The notes below the pieces were generated by a model. The model ran no database searches. It saw only the letters and a program-made list of their open reading frames with translations, and had not been told where the DNA came from. The position numbers and the translations under genes were made by a program. From Veillonella montpellierensis DSM 17217 (lineage in GTDB: Bacteria > Bacillota > Negativicutes > Veillonellales > Veillonellaceae): a DNA stretch of 64,000 nt. Location of the stretch: positions 124,001 to 188,000 of the forward strand of contig NZ_AUFY01000001.1 in the NCBI RefSeq assembly GCF_000426745.1, written 5' to 3'. Shown piece after piece: positions 31,977 to 52,446 of the stretch; position 1 is the first letter of the stretch, and the number at the start of each line of letters is the position of its first letter.

Positions 31977-32708
31977 CTATTTCTTTTCCCGTAATCGTTT
32001 AACTATCTTATATTCCTCGTTAGATAATTCCCGTTCTAATAAATCAGGTCGTAATTGTATGGTTCGCTTAATCGCTTCTTCTAAGCGCCATGTAGCAATA
32101 TTGGCATGATGTCCACTGCGCAATACGTCTGGGACGGTCCAGCCTCTGTATTCAGGTGGCTTTGTATATTGTGGACATTCTAATATAGGTCTATAAAAAG
32201 AATCTTCCGCACTTCCCGTTGGTGCTCCTAACACCCCAGGAATCATACGAGCCACTGCATCAGCTACAACCATCGCGGGCAATTCGCCTCCAGTAACAAC
32301 AAAATCACCAATAGAAATCGTTTCATCCACTAAATGCTCTTCTACTCGATAATCGATTCCTTCATAATGACCACACACTAATACAAGTTGATCATATGTA
32401 GCCAACTCTTTCGCTTTATCTTGCGTAAATCTTTCTCCCGCAGGGCCTAAAAAAACAATTCTTCGATGAGTCGCCTTATGCGTAATAACATGTTCCACTG
32501 CTTCAAAAATAGGTGGGGCCATCATAAGCATCCCCGATCCTCCACCATAAGGTGTATCATCAACTTGTTGGTGCTTATTATGAGAAAAGTTACGAGGGTT
32601 TGTAACAGCCATATCTAATAATCCAGAGGAAATCGCTCTTTTTATAATCGAATGAGAAAAAAAAGCATCAAAAAACTCTGGAAATAAAGAAATAAAGTCG
32701 ATTCTCAT
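31977..32708 (-). CDS. trmD: tRNA (guanine-37-N1)-methyltransferase TrmD
   Basis: Methylates G37 of tRNAs with a G at position 36, preventing +1 frameshifts. The 243-residue SPOUT enzyme has the start MRIDFISLFPEFFDAF, PYGGGSGMLM, the trefoil knot with LVCGHYEGID and SIGDFVVTGGELPAMV, and the catalytic Asp in AEDSFYRPILECPQYTKP. AAGG precedes the ATG. Unlike the usual rimM-trmD pair, it is separated from rimM by 180 bp and a terminator. Confidence 0.97.
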   Translation of the reverse strand: MRIDFISLFPEFFDAFFSHSIIKRAISSGLLDMAVTNPRNFSHNKHQQVDDTPYGGGSGMLMMAPPIFEAVEHVITHKATHRRIVFLGPAGERFTQDKAKELATYDQLVLVCGHYEGIDYRVEEHLVDETISIGDFVVTGGELPAMVVADAVARMIPGVLGAPTGSAEDSFYRPILECPQYTKPPEYRGWTVPDVLRSGHHANIATWRLEEAIKRTIQLRPDLLERELSNEEYKIVKRLREKK

Positions 32709-32755
32709 AGGTTGTACCTTTCCATACTACATAGTTTTATAATAGTAAGCGTATG

Positions 32756-32794
32756 TCTTGCATAGTATAAAACATATTCCATTTTCTTGCATAG
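32756..32794. repeat. Two TCTTGCATAG direct repeats upstream of trmD
   Basis: The decamer occurs at 32756-32765 and 32785-32794, starts 29 bp apart, in the trmD upstream region. Possible regulator half sites; may be chance. Confidence 0.3.
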
Positions 32795-32877
32795 AAACAA
32801 TACTATCTCATATACATGAATAACACTCTCCTCTAAGCAGTACACTGATATGGAATATCTTTTATAATATACGAAAA

Positions 32878-32906
32878 CCGCCTAAGAATTAAATCCACTC
32901 AGGCGG
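32878..32906 (-). terminator. Terminator overlapping the rimM stop codon
   Basis: On the minus strand CCGCCTGAG (32906-32898) pairs with CTTAGGCGG (32886-32878) with one G-U pair, followed by TTTTCG. The rimM stop codon lies within the hairpin, so the SRP/ribosome operon probably ends, at least in part, before trmD. Confidence 0.75.
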
Positions 32907-33383
32907 GTCAACAATCATAGTTCTATTATTCATATCAATATCTATAATGACACCATCAATAGCAGCAAGTAATAGATCTGGCTCACCTGGTTTTGTGACA
33001 ACATAAACATCATTGGCACCAGGTTGCAACACATCTGACAACGTGCCAAGTAAGACACCTTCTTTGTTATATACAGATAAACCAATCATATCAAATATAT
33101 AATAGCGTCCTTCTTCTAATGGCACCAATTGCTCTCTAGTAATTTGAATGTCCTTCTTGCTAATTAGTTCTGCAGCATTTCTATCAACAATCTCATCAAG
33201 TGTAATTAATACAAATTGCTTATGAAAACGAGCCGATGAAAGATGATAAAGTTTACCATCAATATAACAGTCATCCATCGTTAGAAACCGATCAGGAAAA
33301 TCGGTTTGCGGTATAACTTTAAGTTCGCCCCGCACACCGTGCGGGGCAACAATTACACCTATAGTAATTAAATCATGCTGCAT
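32889..33383 (-). CDS. rimM: 16S rRNA-processing protein RimM
   Basis: Assists 30S assembly by binding ribosomal protein S19. The 164-residue protein has the N-terminal RimM barrel (TIGVIVAPHGVRGELKV) and the PRC-type C-terminal domain (YYIFDMIGLSVYNKEGVLLG, then GANDVYVV). The ATG at 33383 begins two bases after the ylqD stop, with no strong ribosome site, so it is likely translated by coupling. The reading frame continues upstream without justification. Its last codons lie in a terminator hairpin. Confidence 0.94.
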   Translation of the reverse strand: MQHDLITIGVIVAPHGVRGELKVIPQTDFPDRFLTMDDCYIDGKLYHLSSARFHKQFVLITLDEIVDRNAAELISKKDIQITREQLVPLEEGRYYIFDMIGLSVYNKEGVLLGTLSDVLQPGANDVYVVTKPGEPDLLLAAIDGVIIDIDMNNRTMIVDPPEWI

Positions 33384-33385
33384 TA

Positions 33386-33793
33386 TTAAGAACGGAATGC
33401 AATAATTTTGCCATCTTCTAGCAAAATTTCTGATTTCATACAATCATCTAAATTATCGCCAACTTTAACAGTAATAGTCTGTTCGATAGTTCCTTGTGCG
33501 ATTTCAGAACCGATTTCAAGCTGCTCTGCTTCTTCCAATTTAGCTGTTACTTCTACCTTGAATTGTAAGCGTTTTTGTTTTTCATCTTCAATCTGTTGAC
33601 GTAATTCAATTAAACCTTGTGCATCAATTTTAGCTTGTTCTGTTAACATTCGTTTTGCTTGCACTTCGATTTGTTCTAATTCTTGTTCAACCATAGTAAG
33701 ACGAGTTTTCAAATCAGATAAAATATTGTTTTTCAAAGTTTCTGTAACTTTTGCTTTCACTGTCACAGGAACACGTAATGTCATTTCTTCCAT
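33386..33793 (-). CDS. ylqD: YlqD family protein
   Basis: A 135-residue protein with an N-terminal beta segment (LRVPVTVKAKVTETL), a long charged coiled-coil (about 25-85, Glu/Gln/Lys-rich) and a C-terminal beta segment (TITVKVGDNLDDCM). It matches YlqD proteins, which lie in this same operon position in Bacillus and relatives. The function is unknown; the setting suggests ribosome maturation. GAGG lies before the ATG, and khpA ends 12 bp upstream. Confidence 0.85.
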   Translation of the reverse strand: MEEMTLRVPVTVKAKVTETLKNNILSDLKTRLTMVEQELEQIEVQAKRMLTEQAKIDAQGLIELRQQIEDEKQKRLQFKVEVTAKLEEAEQLEIGSEIAQGTIEQTITVKVGDNLDDCMKSEILLEDGKIIAFRS

Positions 33794-33805
33794 CTATTCA
33801 TCCTC

Positions 33806-34036
33806 TTAGACAATATCAACGGATATCTTTTTATTCTCTTTAATAGCCGCCGCTTTAATAACAACACGAATTGCTTTAGCAATCCTGCCTTGTTTTCCGA
33901 TTACTTTTCCCATGTCTTCTGGTGCTACATGAAGTTTATATACTTCAACGGCACCTTCTTGAACCATGGTAACAGAAACGGCATCAGGCTGTTTAACTAA
34001 TGACTTAGCAATTAATATAATTAATTCTTTCATCAT
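33806..34036 (-). CDS. khpA: KH-domain RNA-binding protein KhpA
   Basis: A 76-residue single KH domain (YlqC/KhpA). The RNA-binding GxxG loop is in GKVIGKQGRIAKAIRVVI. In streptococci and clostridia the protein pairs with KhpB as an RNA chaperone influencing cell division. It follows rpsP by 19 bp, the usual order in Firmicutes. The start follows AAAGG; a second Met is adjacent. Confidence 0.95.
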   Translation of the reverse strand: MMKELIILIAKSLVKQPDAVSVTMVQEGAVEVYKLHVAPEDMGKVIGKQGRIAKAIRVVIKAAAIKENKKISVDIV

Positions 34037-34055
34037 AGATATGCCTTTCTATTAA

Positions 34056-34319
34056 TTACTTTTTAGCGTCAGCAAATTTTTGCATAATGCCTTGTTTTTT
34101 GAACAAAGAGCGAACTGTATCAGTAGGTTGTGCACCTTTCCCCAACCAAGATAATGCTTTTTCTTCATCAACGTTTATGATAGCAGGATCTTTCGTTGCA
34201 TCATATTGACCGATTGTATCAACAGGACGACCTTCACGTGGAGCGCGAGCATCTGCTACTACGATACGATAAAAAGGAGCTTTTTTAGCACCTAAACGAG
34301 TTAAACGAATTTTTAACAT
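34056..34319 (-). CDS. rpsP: 30S ribosomal protein S16
   Basis: An 87-residue ribosomal protein with the diagnostic start [18 protein letters not shown] and the conserved [18 protein letters not shown]. It is needed for 30S body assembly. The ATG at 34319 follows AGGAGG; a three-codon longer reading is not supported. It sits between ffh and khpA, as in many Firmicutes. Confidence 0.98.
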
Positions 34320-34375
34320 GTATTTCACCTCCTTAACAATATAGCTTGACCATATCTAAATTATACGGTCAAGAT

Positions 34376-35731
34376 TTATCCCATAAACGGAAACTTAGGT
34401 AGTTTAGGCATTTTGCCTCCTTTGCCTCCGCGGAATGCTTGCATTTGTTTCATCATTTTACGTGCTTCATCAAATTGCTTGATGAGACGATTTACCGATT
34501 GCACATCCGTACCTGAACCCATGGCGATACGTTTACGTCGAGAGCCATTTAATATGTTAGGATTCTCGCGTTCTTGTGACGTCATTGATGTTATAATAGC
34601 CTCGATATGTCGTATTTCTTTACTATCCATATCAATATTTTTCAATTGCTCTTTAAACTGACCCATACCTGGTAACATACCAATAATATTTTGTAAAGGC
34701 CCTAATTTACGCACTTGATTCATTTGCTTTAGAAAATCATCCAAGGTGAAATTATTTTTGGCCATTTTTTTAGCCATTTCTCGAGCTTCTTCTTCATCAA
34801 TAGCACCTTGTACATTTTCAATCAAGGTTTTAAAATCACCTAAATCCAAAATGCGTGATGCCATACGATCAGGATAAAACACATCGAGCCCATCCATTTT
34901 TTCACTGACCCCAGTGAATTTAATTGGCAACCCAGTAACAGCTTTTATAGAAAGAGCTGCCCCGCCACGAGCATCGCCATCTAGTTTCGTTAAAATAACG
35001 CCATCAATACCGAGCTTTTCATTAAATGTTTGCGCCGTAGTAACCGCATCTTGCCCAATCATAGAATCCACTACTAATAAAATTTCATGTGGTTTAACCG
35101 CCTGTTTTATATTGACTAATTCATTCATTAACGCTTCATCAATAGCTAAACGACCGGCCGTATCGATAATAACAACGTCTTTTAACATAGATGTACTAGC
35201 CATAATAGCTTCACGAGCAATATCAACAGGGTTAGCTTGATCTTCTTTAGCAAATACAGGTACATCTATTTGTTTGCCTAATACTTGTAACTGTTTTATA
35301 GCCGCTGGTCTATACACGTCAGCTGCTACCATCATAGGATGTTTGCCTTGCTTGCGTAAATATACCGCTAGTTTACCTGCTGTAGTTGTCTTACCAGCAC
35401 CTTGTAGACCTACTAGCATAATAATAGTAGGCGGCTTCGAAGCAATCATAATGCGACTTTGCGTGCCACCCAATAAGTCAGTTAATTCATCATTAACAAT
35501 CTTAATAACCGTCTGTGTTGGATTCATCGATCCAAACACATTTTCACCTAAAGCCTTTTCTTTAACATTATTGATAAAATCTTTAGCTACTTTAAAGTTT
35601 ACATCTGCTTCTAGTAGCGCTGTACGAACTTGTCGCAAAGCTAGATTGACATCATCCTCTGTAATTTTACCTTTACCTTTTAAAGAAGCAAAGGCTTCTT
35701 GAAGTCTATCTGACAAACTATCAAAAGCCAT
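34376..35731 (-). CDS. ffh: Signal recognition particle protein Ffh
   Basis: The 451-residue GTPase of the signal recognition particle, targeting nascent membrane proteins. The N domain (1-90) is followed by the G domain with VGLQGAGKTTTAGKLA (G1), DVYRPAAIKQL, VIIDTAGRLAIDEALM and TKLDGDARGGAALS, and by a Met-rich M domain (about 320-440) carrying the RNA-binding RRKRIAMGSGT, which binds 4.5S RNA. It ends in a Gly/Lys/Phe tail. ylxM ends 1 bp upstream of the start; GGAGG precedes the ATG. Confidence 0.98.
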   Translation of the reverse strand: MAFDSLSDRLQEAFASLKGKGKITEDDVNLALRQVRTALLEADVNFKVAKDFINNVKEKALGENVFGSMNPTQTVIKIVNDELTDLLGGTQSRIMIASKPPTIIMLVGLQGAGKTTTAGKLAVYLRKQGKHPMMVAADVYRPAAIKQLQVLGKQIDVPVFAKEDQANPVDIAREAIMASTSMLKDVVIIDTAGRLAIDEALMNELVNIKQAVKPHEILLVVDSMIGQDAVTTAQTFNEKLGIDGVILTKLDGDARGGAALSIKAVTGLPIKFTGVSEKMDGLDVFYPDRMASRILDLGDFKTLIENVQGAIDEEEAREMAKKMAKNNFTLDDFLKQMNQVRKLGPLQNIIGMLPGMGQFKEQLKNIDMDSKEIRHIEAIITSMTSQERENPNILNGSRRKRIAMGSGTDVQSVNRLIKQFDEARKMMKQMQAFRGGKGGKMPKLPKFPFMG

Positions 35732-35732
35732 T

Positions 35733-36056
35733 CTACCCCTCCATTTGCATCAATAATTTCTGCACATTTGATACAGAGATAATTTCCTTTGATAGTTCAC
35801 TTTTCATGGCCGCTATAAGTGCTTTACGTTTTTCATATTGAGCTATCAAATGTAATTTTTCTTCATAACCAGTTAATAGTTGCATTGCTTTTTTTAAATT
35901 GTCATATACCGCTTGACGAGATACTCCTAACTCTTCAGCAATTTCGCCCAACGACATATCATCTTCATGATGTAACTGCAAACAATGCTTTTGTTTATCT
36001 GTTAGCAACATCCCATAGAAGTCAAGTAGTAGACTCACTAACACTCTTTCTTCCAT
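35733..36056 (-). CDS. ylxM: YlxM family SRP-associated DNA-binding protein
   Basis: A 107-residue helix-turn-helix protein resembling sigma-70 region 4: LLTDKQKHCLQLHHEDDMSL then EIAEELGVSRQAVYDNLKKA. YlxM nearly always precedes ffh; in Streptococcus mutans its orthologue affects SRP activity. It is the first gene of the operon ylxM-ffh-rpsP-khpA-ylqD-rimM. A strong promoter with a perfect 20-bp palindrome just after the -10 box lies upstream; self-regulation by its own HTH is possible but unproven. AAGGTGA precedes the ATG. Confidence 0.93.
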   Translation of the reverse strand: MEERVLVSLLLDFYGMLLTDKQKHCLQLHHEDDMSLGEIAEELGVSRQAVYDNLKKAMQLLTGYEEKLHLIAQYEKRKALIAAMKSELSKEIISVSNVQKLLMQMEG

Positions 36057-36080
36057 ATGTTGTCACCTTATTAAACTTAT

Positions 36081-36100
36081 GTAAAGTAAATTTACTTTAC
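36081..36100. promoter_or_regulatory. Perfect 20-bp palindrome at the ylxM-ffh operon start site
   Basis: GTAAAGTAAATTTACTTTAC is its own exact reverse complement. It begins five bases after the -10 box at 36106-36111, so it covers the expected transcription start (near 36099). A repressor bound here would block the operon. The regulator is not known. Confidence 0.65.
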
Positions 36101-36105
36101 GACTT

Positions 36106-36134
36106 ATTTTAGCAATACCATAAATGGTTGTCAA
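36106..36134 (-). promoter_or_regulatory. Promoter of the SRP/ribosome-maturation operon
   Basis: On the minus strand TTGACA (36129-36134), a 17-bp spacer, and TAAAAT (36106-36111): a perfect -35 and one mismatch in the -10. It is the best promoter in the window. Confidence 0.85.
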
Positions 36135-36204
36135 GTATTTTTACTTGTCTTTCATTTTCTTTTACAAGTCATCTACACAGCTAACTGTATCATTTCACAA
36201 TTAA

Positions 36205-48897: not shown

Positions 48898-51800
48898 CTA
48901 TTTTTTATTTACACTATCTTGAATCTTAATCAAGCAATCGCCACTTTCAATACGACTACCTTCGCGAACAAAAATAGTTTCCACTATACCATCAATAGGA
49001 GATGTGATCGTAGTTTCCATTTTCATTGCTTCTGTAACAATAAGTGGTTCACCCTTCGCAACCGCCTGCCCGACTACAGCAATAATTTTAACAACTGATC
49101 CTGATAATGTAGCCCCTACTTCACCTGGTACAGTATCATCAACTTTACGACGAGCCAATGCATTCGTTTTAACATGTTTATCATGAACTTTAATCGACCG
49201 TGGTTGTCCATTAAATTCAAATACTACAACGCGGTCACCATCTTCATTCGGTTCACTAATTAACAATAATTTAATAATTAAAGTTTTGCCTTTTTCAATC
49301 GTAACAGGTATAGTTTCACCTATATTCATACCAAAGAAGAAAGTTGGCGTGTCAAGCACTGATACATCGCCAAATTGCTTTCTAAATTTAGACCAGTCTT
49401 CATATACTTTTGGATATAAGCAATAGGCACTAATATCTTCATCAGTTGTATTATATCCTTTTTCCTCTAATTCATGACGTACATGTTCAAAATCAACTGG
49501 TTGCAATACTGCACCCGGTCGTTTACTAATTGCTTTTAATCCTTTTAAAATAATTTTCTGAAGTTTTTCTGGAAATCCCTGATATGGTACACCTAAGCGT
49601 CCTTCAAAGAATTCTACTACCGATTGAGGGAAGTCAAGTGTATCACCTTTATCATAAATGTCTTGCTCTGTTAAGTTATTTTGCACCATGAATAAAGTCA
49701 TATCGCCTACTACTTTAGAAGATGGTGTAACTTTAACAATATCCCCAAACATCATATTAACTTGGTGATATACTTTTTTAATTTCAGACCACCGATCACC
49801 TAATCCTACACTTTTAGCTTGTTGTTGTAAGTTAGAATATTGTCCACCTGGCATTTCATGTTGATATACGCTTGTATTAGGATATGGTGCAGTATGATCA
49901 ACGCCACGATAGTAAGGACGAATTGATCCAAAATAATCTGACATTTCTTGCATATATTCTGCATTCATACTTGGCTGACGACTATGTCCTGACAAACCAT
50001 AATACATGGAATTCATGCTTGGTTGACTAGTGCCATTAGCAAAGGCGGAGTAAGCTAAATCAATAACGTCTACACCAGCATCAACCGCTCTGCCATAAGT
50101 ATAAATAGCATTACCAGAACCTTCATGTGTATGTAAATGAATTGGTAATGATGTAGCATCTTTTAAAGCGGATACTAAATTATAAGCCGCTTGCGGTTTT
50201 AATAAGCCTGCCATATCTTTAATCGCAATAATATTAGCGCCCGCTTTTTGTAACTCTTTCGCCATAGTTACATAATATTGTAAGTTATATTTAGGACGGG
50301 AACCATCTAAAATATCACCTGTATAACATACGGCTACTTCTGCTAATTTACCTTGATTACGAACTTCATCAATAGCTATATGCATATTATCCAGACTATT
50401 TAAGCTATCGAACACTCGGAATACATCAACACCATTTTTAGCTGCTAATTGAATAAAGTTACGCACTACATTATCTGGATAACTAGTATACCCAACTGCA
50501 TTAGCACCACGCAACAGCATTTGTAATAACGTATTGGGTACTTCTTTTCTAAACATGCGCAATCGTTCCCATGGATCCTCATGTAAGAATCGATATGCTA
50601 CATCAAACGTAGCCCCACCCCAACATTCTAAGGAGAATAAATTAGGTACACCACGTGCCGCCTTACCAGCAACTCGTGCCATATCAATGGTCCGCAAGCG
50701 AGTCGCAAATAAAGATTGATGTGCATCACGCCATGTAGTATCAGTAAACATAACTTTATCTTGTGCAGATACCCATTTTGAAAACTCTTCAGGTCCTAAT
50801 TCATCGAATTTTTGTTTTGTCCCCTCTGCTAAAGAGCATTCTAAGGTAGAAGGTAATTCAATGGAATCAAAATTTGGCTTTGCTTCTGCGCCAGTACCCG
50901 TATATCCGTTAACTGTAATATCTGCGATGTAGTGTAACAACTTAGTGCCGCGGTCACGAGTTGCTTTAAACTTAAACAATTCTGGATGTTCATCAATAAA
51001 GTTTACATTACAATGTCCACTTACAAAATCAGGATGTTCTAATACATTCATTAAAAAACGAATATTCGTTTTTACTCCACGAATGCGAAATTCTCGCAAG
51101 CATCGTAACATTTTCCGAATGGTCTCTTCATGATTTAGCGCATAAGCTGTTGCCTTCACTAATAAAGAATCATAATACGGTGTTACTACAGACCCAGTAA
51201 ATGCATTGCCTGCATCTAAGCGAATACCAAAGCCACCACTACTGCGATATACAGACAATTTACCTGTATCTGGCATAAAATGATTAGTAGGATCTTCTGT
51301 AGTAATACGACACTGAATCGCCGTTCCTTCACAACGAATTTCATCTTGTGGAGGAATACCTACTTCTGGACTATGCAACTCATAGCCTTCCGCAATGCGA
51401 ATTTGTGTATGTACAATATCAATACCCGTAATCATTTCTGTTACAGTATGCTCTACTTGAATACGAGGATTAACTTCTATAAAATAAAAACTTCCATCTT
51501 GAGTTACTAGAAATTCTACTGTACCAGCACCTACATAATGTACATTATTCATGATTTTTACAGCCGCATCACAAATATTGCGACGAATTTCCTTTGATAA
51601 TGCAAAAGCAGGCGCCATTTCAACAACTTTTTGATGACGACGTTGTACAGAACAATCGCGTTCATATAAATGAACTACATTACCATGAGTATCTCCAATA
51701 ATTTGTACTTCAATATGTTTTGGTTCTACAATTAACTTTTCTACATATACATCATCATCACCAAATGCACTTTTAGCTTCTGACTTGGCCCGATCATAGG

Positions 51801-52420: not shown

Positions 52421-52446
52421 ATGTATGTATACATGTATACATACAT
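52421..52446. promoter_or_regulatory. Perfect 26-bp palindrome upstream of pyc
   Basis: Positions 52421-52446 are an exact palindrome; its half is ATGTATGTATACA and its centre is ACATGT. No T-run follows on either side, so it is not a terminator. A second short inverted repeat, TTTATCA/TGATAAA (52450-52456 with 52464-52470), adjoins it. It is probably an operator controlling pyc. Confidence 0.6.

Follow-up and report, generated by a model that had tools for sequence, protein, structure and literature searches.

In the genome of Veillonella montpellierensis DSM 17217, ylxM and ffh head a minus-strand operon that continues with rpsP, ylqC, ylqD, rimM and trmD. The stretch of DNA that we analyzed around it, 64 kb in length, is referred to as the window. 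The names ffh, rpsP, ylqC, rimM and trmD are those which we take to apply from knowledge of the respective families, and YlqD was assigned by PF11068. Upstream of ylxM, the sequence-only reading had described a TTGACA -35 box, a 17-bp spacer and a TAAAAT -10 box, followed five bases (AAGTC) later by a perfect palindrome. All of these are present on the minus strand, and the palindrome, GTAAAGTAAATTTACTTTAC, is exact, 20 bp long and located at 36100-36081. With its extended TG, the promoter obtained the top promoter-like score (11/12) in the 2.5-kb region. That reading did not include a second inverted repeat, termed O1 here, which lies over the -35 box with its centre 49 bp upstream of the palindrome. 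The features of the locus are the following:

36129..36150, minus strand: candidate operator O1, AGACAAGTAAAAATACTTGACA, a 10/12 match with the -35 box as right arm
36129..36134, minus strand: -35 element TTGACA
36106..36111, minus strand: -10 element TAAAAT, with the extended -10 TG at 36114-36113
36098..36100, minus strand: predicted transcription start, 6-8 nt past the -10 element from whose position it is deduced, at the first bases of O2
36080..36101, minus strand: candidate operator O2, CGTAAAGTAAATTTACTTTACA; it contains the palindrome 36081-36100 and matches 11/12 fixed positions of TGT.AAG-N8-CTT.ACA
36064..36069, minus strand: Shine-Dalgarno-like AAGGTG of ylxM, from the sequence
35733..36056, minus strand: ylxM (UPF0122), sigma-region-4-like helix-turn-helix (HTH) protein, proposed binder of O1 and O2
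34376..35731, minus strand: ffh, SRP GTPase, first gene past ylxM, from ORF and gene order
31977..34328, minus strand: remaining operon, rpsP, ylqC (KH), ylqD, rimM and trmD, from their ORFs

The 20-bp core of O1 (36130-36149) matches GWMAAGTA-N4-TACTTKWC without mismatch, and in the whole 1.87-Mb genome only O1 and O2 do so. No further operator copies emerged from this genome when two mismatches were allowed, the 16 matches representing background only (19 in a reversed control). The palindrome GTAAAGTAAATTTACTTTAC is unique in the genome, even when up to three mismatches are allowed. Two other perfect palindromes occur in the window, one of 26 bp (ATGTATGTATACATGTATACATACAT, 52421-52446) and one of 20 bp (AAAAACGAATATTCGTTTTT, 51054-51073).

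Distribution of the 22-bp element in Bacillota

The sequence-only reading had been made to depend on conservation of the palindrome upstream of ylxM in related Negativicutes. We ran this comparison and found the palindrome kept in close relatives, across Veillonella and then across Bacillota. The ylxM gene, 68-70% identical to those of V. parvula and other Veillonella, is preceded in these relatives by the same repeat pair, with O1 over the -35 box reading TGTYAAGTA-N4-TACTTGACA and O2 at the start reading TGTAAAGT...ACTTGACA. In general terms, the element is TGTMAAG-N8-CTTKACA, spans 22 bp and is located at +1 (O2), over the -35 box (O1) or at both places.

We collected the regions upstream of ylxM at 184 distinct loci in Negativicutes, Clostridia-type and Bacilli-type genomes, a sample that is uneven and consists of related genomes which are not phylogenetically independent, and scanned mainly up to 157 bp from the ylxM start; 19 listed loci were not parsed by the start-finding script and some ylxM starts are possibly misassigned. 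At least 10 of the 12 fixed positions of TGT.AAG-N8-CTT.ACA were matched in 165 of the 184 regions (90%) versus 1.1% of dinucleotide shuffles, and all 12 in 112 regions versus none of the shuffles. With spacers of 4, 5, 6, 9 or 11 bp, no match of 11/12 or better was found upstream of ylxM in these loci. When versions with a 7-bp spacer and a 200-bp stretch were counted, 172 of the 184 loci (93%) had at least one site. O2 was found 144 times and O1 96 times, with both in 59 loci and centre distances mostly of 45-63 bp. YlxM itself was found in nearly all sampled Bacillota, and ylxM has what is expected for an autoregulated repressor, namely a conserved candidate operator overlapping its own promoter. 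Streptococcus-like and Staphylococcus-like genomes have kept YlxM but have no operator upstream of ylxM.

When 101 Bacillota genomes were searched for exact matches to TGTMAAG-N{4,8}-CTTKACA, at least 75 places emerged. Among the matches listed, those within 80 bp upstream of ylxM made up 35/41 for the 8-bp spacer and 0/28 for spacers of 4-6 bp; one further match with an 8-bp spacer, in genome G231, lies 264 bp upstream of a profile match inside a long ORF. The element is nearly exclusive to ylxM promoters. In seven genomes from five families, in which ffh is full-length and ylxM undetectable, the 4.3-kb ffh loci contained no site and the genomes as a whole no canonical one, an absence that is only partly independent evidence because the ylxM promoter and gene were perhaps deleted together. 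The loci with ffh kept and ylxM apparently lost are L236, L244 and L246-L250 (G140, G280, G225, G260, G187, G206, G265), and in several of them ftsY adjoins ffh. Locus L059 (G000:C2:7909-7928) carries ATCAAGTAATATTACTTGAT, a perfect palindrome two mismatches off the operator pattern. A search for copies of YlxM that phages might carry together with an operator was uninformative, its matches being short, unannotated phage records with bacterial hosts, possibly host DNA.

In Bacilli, a scan of 46 genomes gave 62 places versus 19 in the reversed control. By our reading of the lists, about 29 of these were at ylxM and about 16 at ribosomal-protein promoters, the remainder corresponding to the control rate. 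The element overlaps the -35 boxes of rpsP, rplS, yceD-rpmF and rpmB. Sites were found at the promoters of rpsP (L266, L267, L310, L311, L312, L319-L321), rplS (L312, 3132-3153), yceD-rpmF or rpmF (L268, L271-L273, L313) and rpmB (L314); the remaining rpsP promoter sites are presumed such from their position after ffh. The Streptococcus- and Staphylococcus-like genomes without a site at ylxM carry sites at ribosomal-protein promoters. In B. subtilis, promoters have been reported upstream of ylxM, rpsP and rplS, the same positions as those of the sites (PMC10100781). This distribution suggests that in Bacilli the element likely serves a wider, ribosomal-protein regulon. Upstream of greA-lysS, many Negativicutes (L302-L309, L316, about 1200-1560) have a 21-bp palindrome with a 7-bp spacer, TGTCAAGTKANTMACTTGACA, adjoining a conserved ATTTATATTGTC; this palindrome could represent a further target of YlxM, a terminator or a feature of some other kind.

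YlxM as candidate binder and competing explanations

The ylxM product belongs to PF04297 (UPF0122; 2e-29, 102.1 bits, cut-off 22.7, residues 1-91) and, in keeping with this family, is encoded directly upstream of ffh. It also matches Sigma70_r4 (2e-9, 37.2 bits, cut-off 24.1). The best fold matches of its structure model (pLDDT 93) were the solved UPF0122 structures 1xsv/1s7o, followed by sigma region 4 domains, ArdK and KorA. The model matched 1ku7, sigma-A region 4 on -35 DNA, with Z 9.5 (2.0 A over 66 residues) and ArdK 7bcb with Z 8.8; 6jhe and 1rio were also among the matches, placing the protein in the sigma-region-4 fold. In an alignment with sigma-A from the same genome, residues S46-R47-Q48 of YlxM coincide with T-R-E in the helix that reads -35, and R47 and Q48 are 99% conserved. 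In sigma-70, R584 is responsible for reading -31 and E585 for reading -33, and the exchange E585Q relaxes -33 (PMC2613000). In the operator arm CTT[TGA]ACA, the -31-equivalent C is present in 94-100% of arms and the -33-equivalent is degenerate. In arms doubling as -35 boxes the latter is mostly G (90/96), and the right arms of O1 are partly expected, as -35 boxes are TTGACA anyway. Because the motif had already been established when the fit of the recognition helix came to our attention, we treat this fit as supportive and not as a blind prediction.

We propose, with a probability of roughly 0.8, that YlxM uses O1 and O2 as its DNA operators and acts as a sigma-4-like dimeric repressor that competes with sigma for half-sites of the -35 type and controls its own SRP operon. 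YlxM appears the likely binder because the site is near-exclusive to ylxM promoters and absent in the seven ylxM-less genomes, and because the half-site fits a sigma-4-type helix. The sequence-only reading had suggested self-repression by YlxM; its binding to the palindrome gains indirect support from these points, and the arrangement goes beyond that reading, with two candidate operators instead of one and a likely wider regulon in Bacilli. The two sites, their conservation throughout the phylum, their near-exclusivity to ylxM promoters, a constraint acting on DNA and not on RNA, the fold and the residues of the recognition helix are shown here; the roles of YlxM as binder, as repressor and as dimer on DNA, and a sensing of SRP occupancy that would rely on its reported contacts with Ffh and SRP RNA, are what we infer. 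We found no DNA binding, operator or regulon of YlxM described in the open-licence PMC papers searched; descriptions elsewhere, including regulon databases, are possible.

The competing explanation that survives best, and which we consider unlikely, is that the sites are operators of another conserved Bacillota regulator of SRP and ribosomal-protein promoters, with YlxM merely a regulated neighbour. Sites away from ylxM, at the promoters of rpsP, rplS, rpmF and rpmB, would be accounted for, as would the Streptococcus- and Staphylococcus-like genomes that carry such sites and none at ylxM, and binding by YlxM is itself something that we infer. However, throughout the phylum the sites go together with ylxM, and the seven ylxM-less genomes have none. 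YlxM is also the always-adjacent HTH protein, and its recognition helix suits the invariant operator base as well as the degenerate one.

A much smaller chance is given to the palindrome at +1 folding into a hairpin at the extreme 5' terminus of the mRNA, where it would protect the message or bind a protein. In the window, an 8-bp stem (-7.5 kcal/mol, z -2.5) would open the transcript, most loci have O2 inside the 5' leader, and YlxM has been reported to bind SRP RNA. However, arms unable to pair as RNA are common, which argues for a DNA operator. Most O2 pairs at position 4/19 are mismatched: of 142, A.G, the commonest, accounts for 50, A.A for 21 and C.U and C.A for five each. Pairing at position 4 is near chance (54/123 versus 45 expected), and pair 8/15 is frequently mismatched as well. 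O1, whose arms are the same, is positioned before the -10 box and hence outside the predicted transcript. Near-random pairing in O2 together with the position of O1 indicates that the two arms are recognized independently of each other, in the manner expected of a dimeric protein that binds DNA. The Rfam scan gave no match, and the conserved pairing with covariation typical of a structured RNA in a 5'-UTR was not found, the weak signal being confined to pair 8/15. Weak arm-arm covariation at three pairs (P 0.003-0.05) is expected for a dyad and still compatible with some RNA role.

Less probable still is that O1 is the intrinsic terminator of the upstream gene, which happens to include the -35 box, and that O2 is a by-product. 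In some Veillonella (L005) an extended O1 stem is followed by a T-run, and 19 of the 96 O1 sites have a T-rich tail; the other 77, including O1 of the window, do not, and O2 shares the arms and the 8-bp spacer of O1 while having no role as a terminator.

Perfect palindromes of at least 20 bp number three in the 64-kb window versus about 0.15 per shuffled window, and taken alone GTAAAGTAAATTTACTTTAC is weak evidence and only mildly unusual; it rises above chance because arms and spacing are conserved across loci. The notion of a chance palindrome within AT-rich intergenic DNA, which could point to the two further palindromes of this size in the window, is already refuted by the retention of arms and spacing in about 90% of the 184 loci and deserves practically no credence.

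Proposed mechanism and comparison with known systems

In the mechanism that we favor, YlxM would probably act as a dimer, and each of the two -35-like half-sites (CTTKACA) in the 22-bp inverted repeat would be occupied by one sigma-region-4-like HTH. At O1, where one half-site is the -35 box of the promoter, YlxM and sigma would compete; at O2, a YlxM dimer over the start site would block initiation or escape. Plentiful YlxM would then shut its own ylxM-ffh operon, resulting in negative feedback. In Bacilli, operators on the -35 boxes of rpsP, rplS, yceD-rpmF and rpmB would allow YlxM to tie SRP to ribosomal-protein output.

In S. mutans, YlxM has been reported to bind Ffh as well as SRP RNA (work cited in PMC8546722), and for this reason SRP may titrate YlxM. 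More tentatively, and with the odds somewhat against it, YlxM could be a phylum-wide sensor-repressor that binds either SRP (Ffh and RNA) or the palindrome, such that SRP occupancy sets the amount of free YlxM that out-competes sigma for the promoter of the SRP operon and, among Bacilli, for a set of ribosomal-protein promoters. If true, a sensor-repressor of this kind would couple protein-targeting capacity to ribosome production. Descriptions of YlxM have so far been limited to an SRP accessory role that leaves its HTH unexplained, and the candidate 22-bp operator, its targets and the residue-level specificity make this puzzle testable. Our findings suggest that SRP and some ribosomal-protein promoters may share a repressor imitating the -35 reader of sigma.

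The protein studied here is a clear member of the YlxM/UPF0122 family (B. subtilis YlxM, S. mutans YlxM, mycoplasma p13) and is encoded in the usual ylxM-ffh operon. In the papers searched, this family is presented as accessory to SRP through binding of Ffh and scRNA (PMC8546722) and is not linked to DNA, a point against our proposal, and we found neither an operator nor a regulon described in them. KorA and ArdK are small HTH repressors, as is proposed for YlxM. The recognition motif of ArdK is said to be identical to the -35 reader of sigma-70 and its operators overlap the -35 box (PMC9723621), which makes ArdK a precedent for a sigma-like HTH repressor with an operator over -35. In contrast to YlxM, both are plasmid-borne and have another dimerisation domain, and KorA uses an inverted repeat at -10 and ArdK direct repeats; the match lies in the fold of the HTH part, and no sequence membership in UPF0122 was seen for them. 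The GlnR/TnrA box, TGTNAN7TNACA, shares the TGTNA...TNACA ends with the ylxM element but is 17 bp long overall instead of 22 bp, and its arms are without the AAG/CTT core. Region 4 of sigma-70 has the same fold (1ku7), the half-site TTGACA and the arginine equivalent to R584 in common with YlxM, whereas YlxM is a stand-alone protein, carries Q in place of E585 and is proposed to read an inverted repeat whose arms are 8 bp apart.
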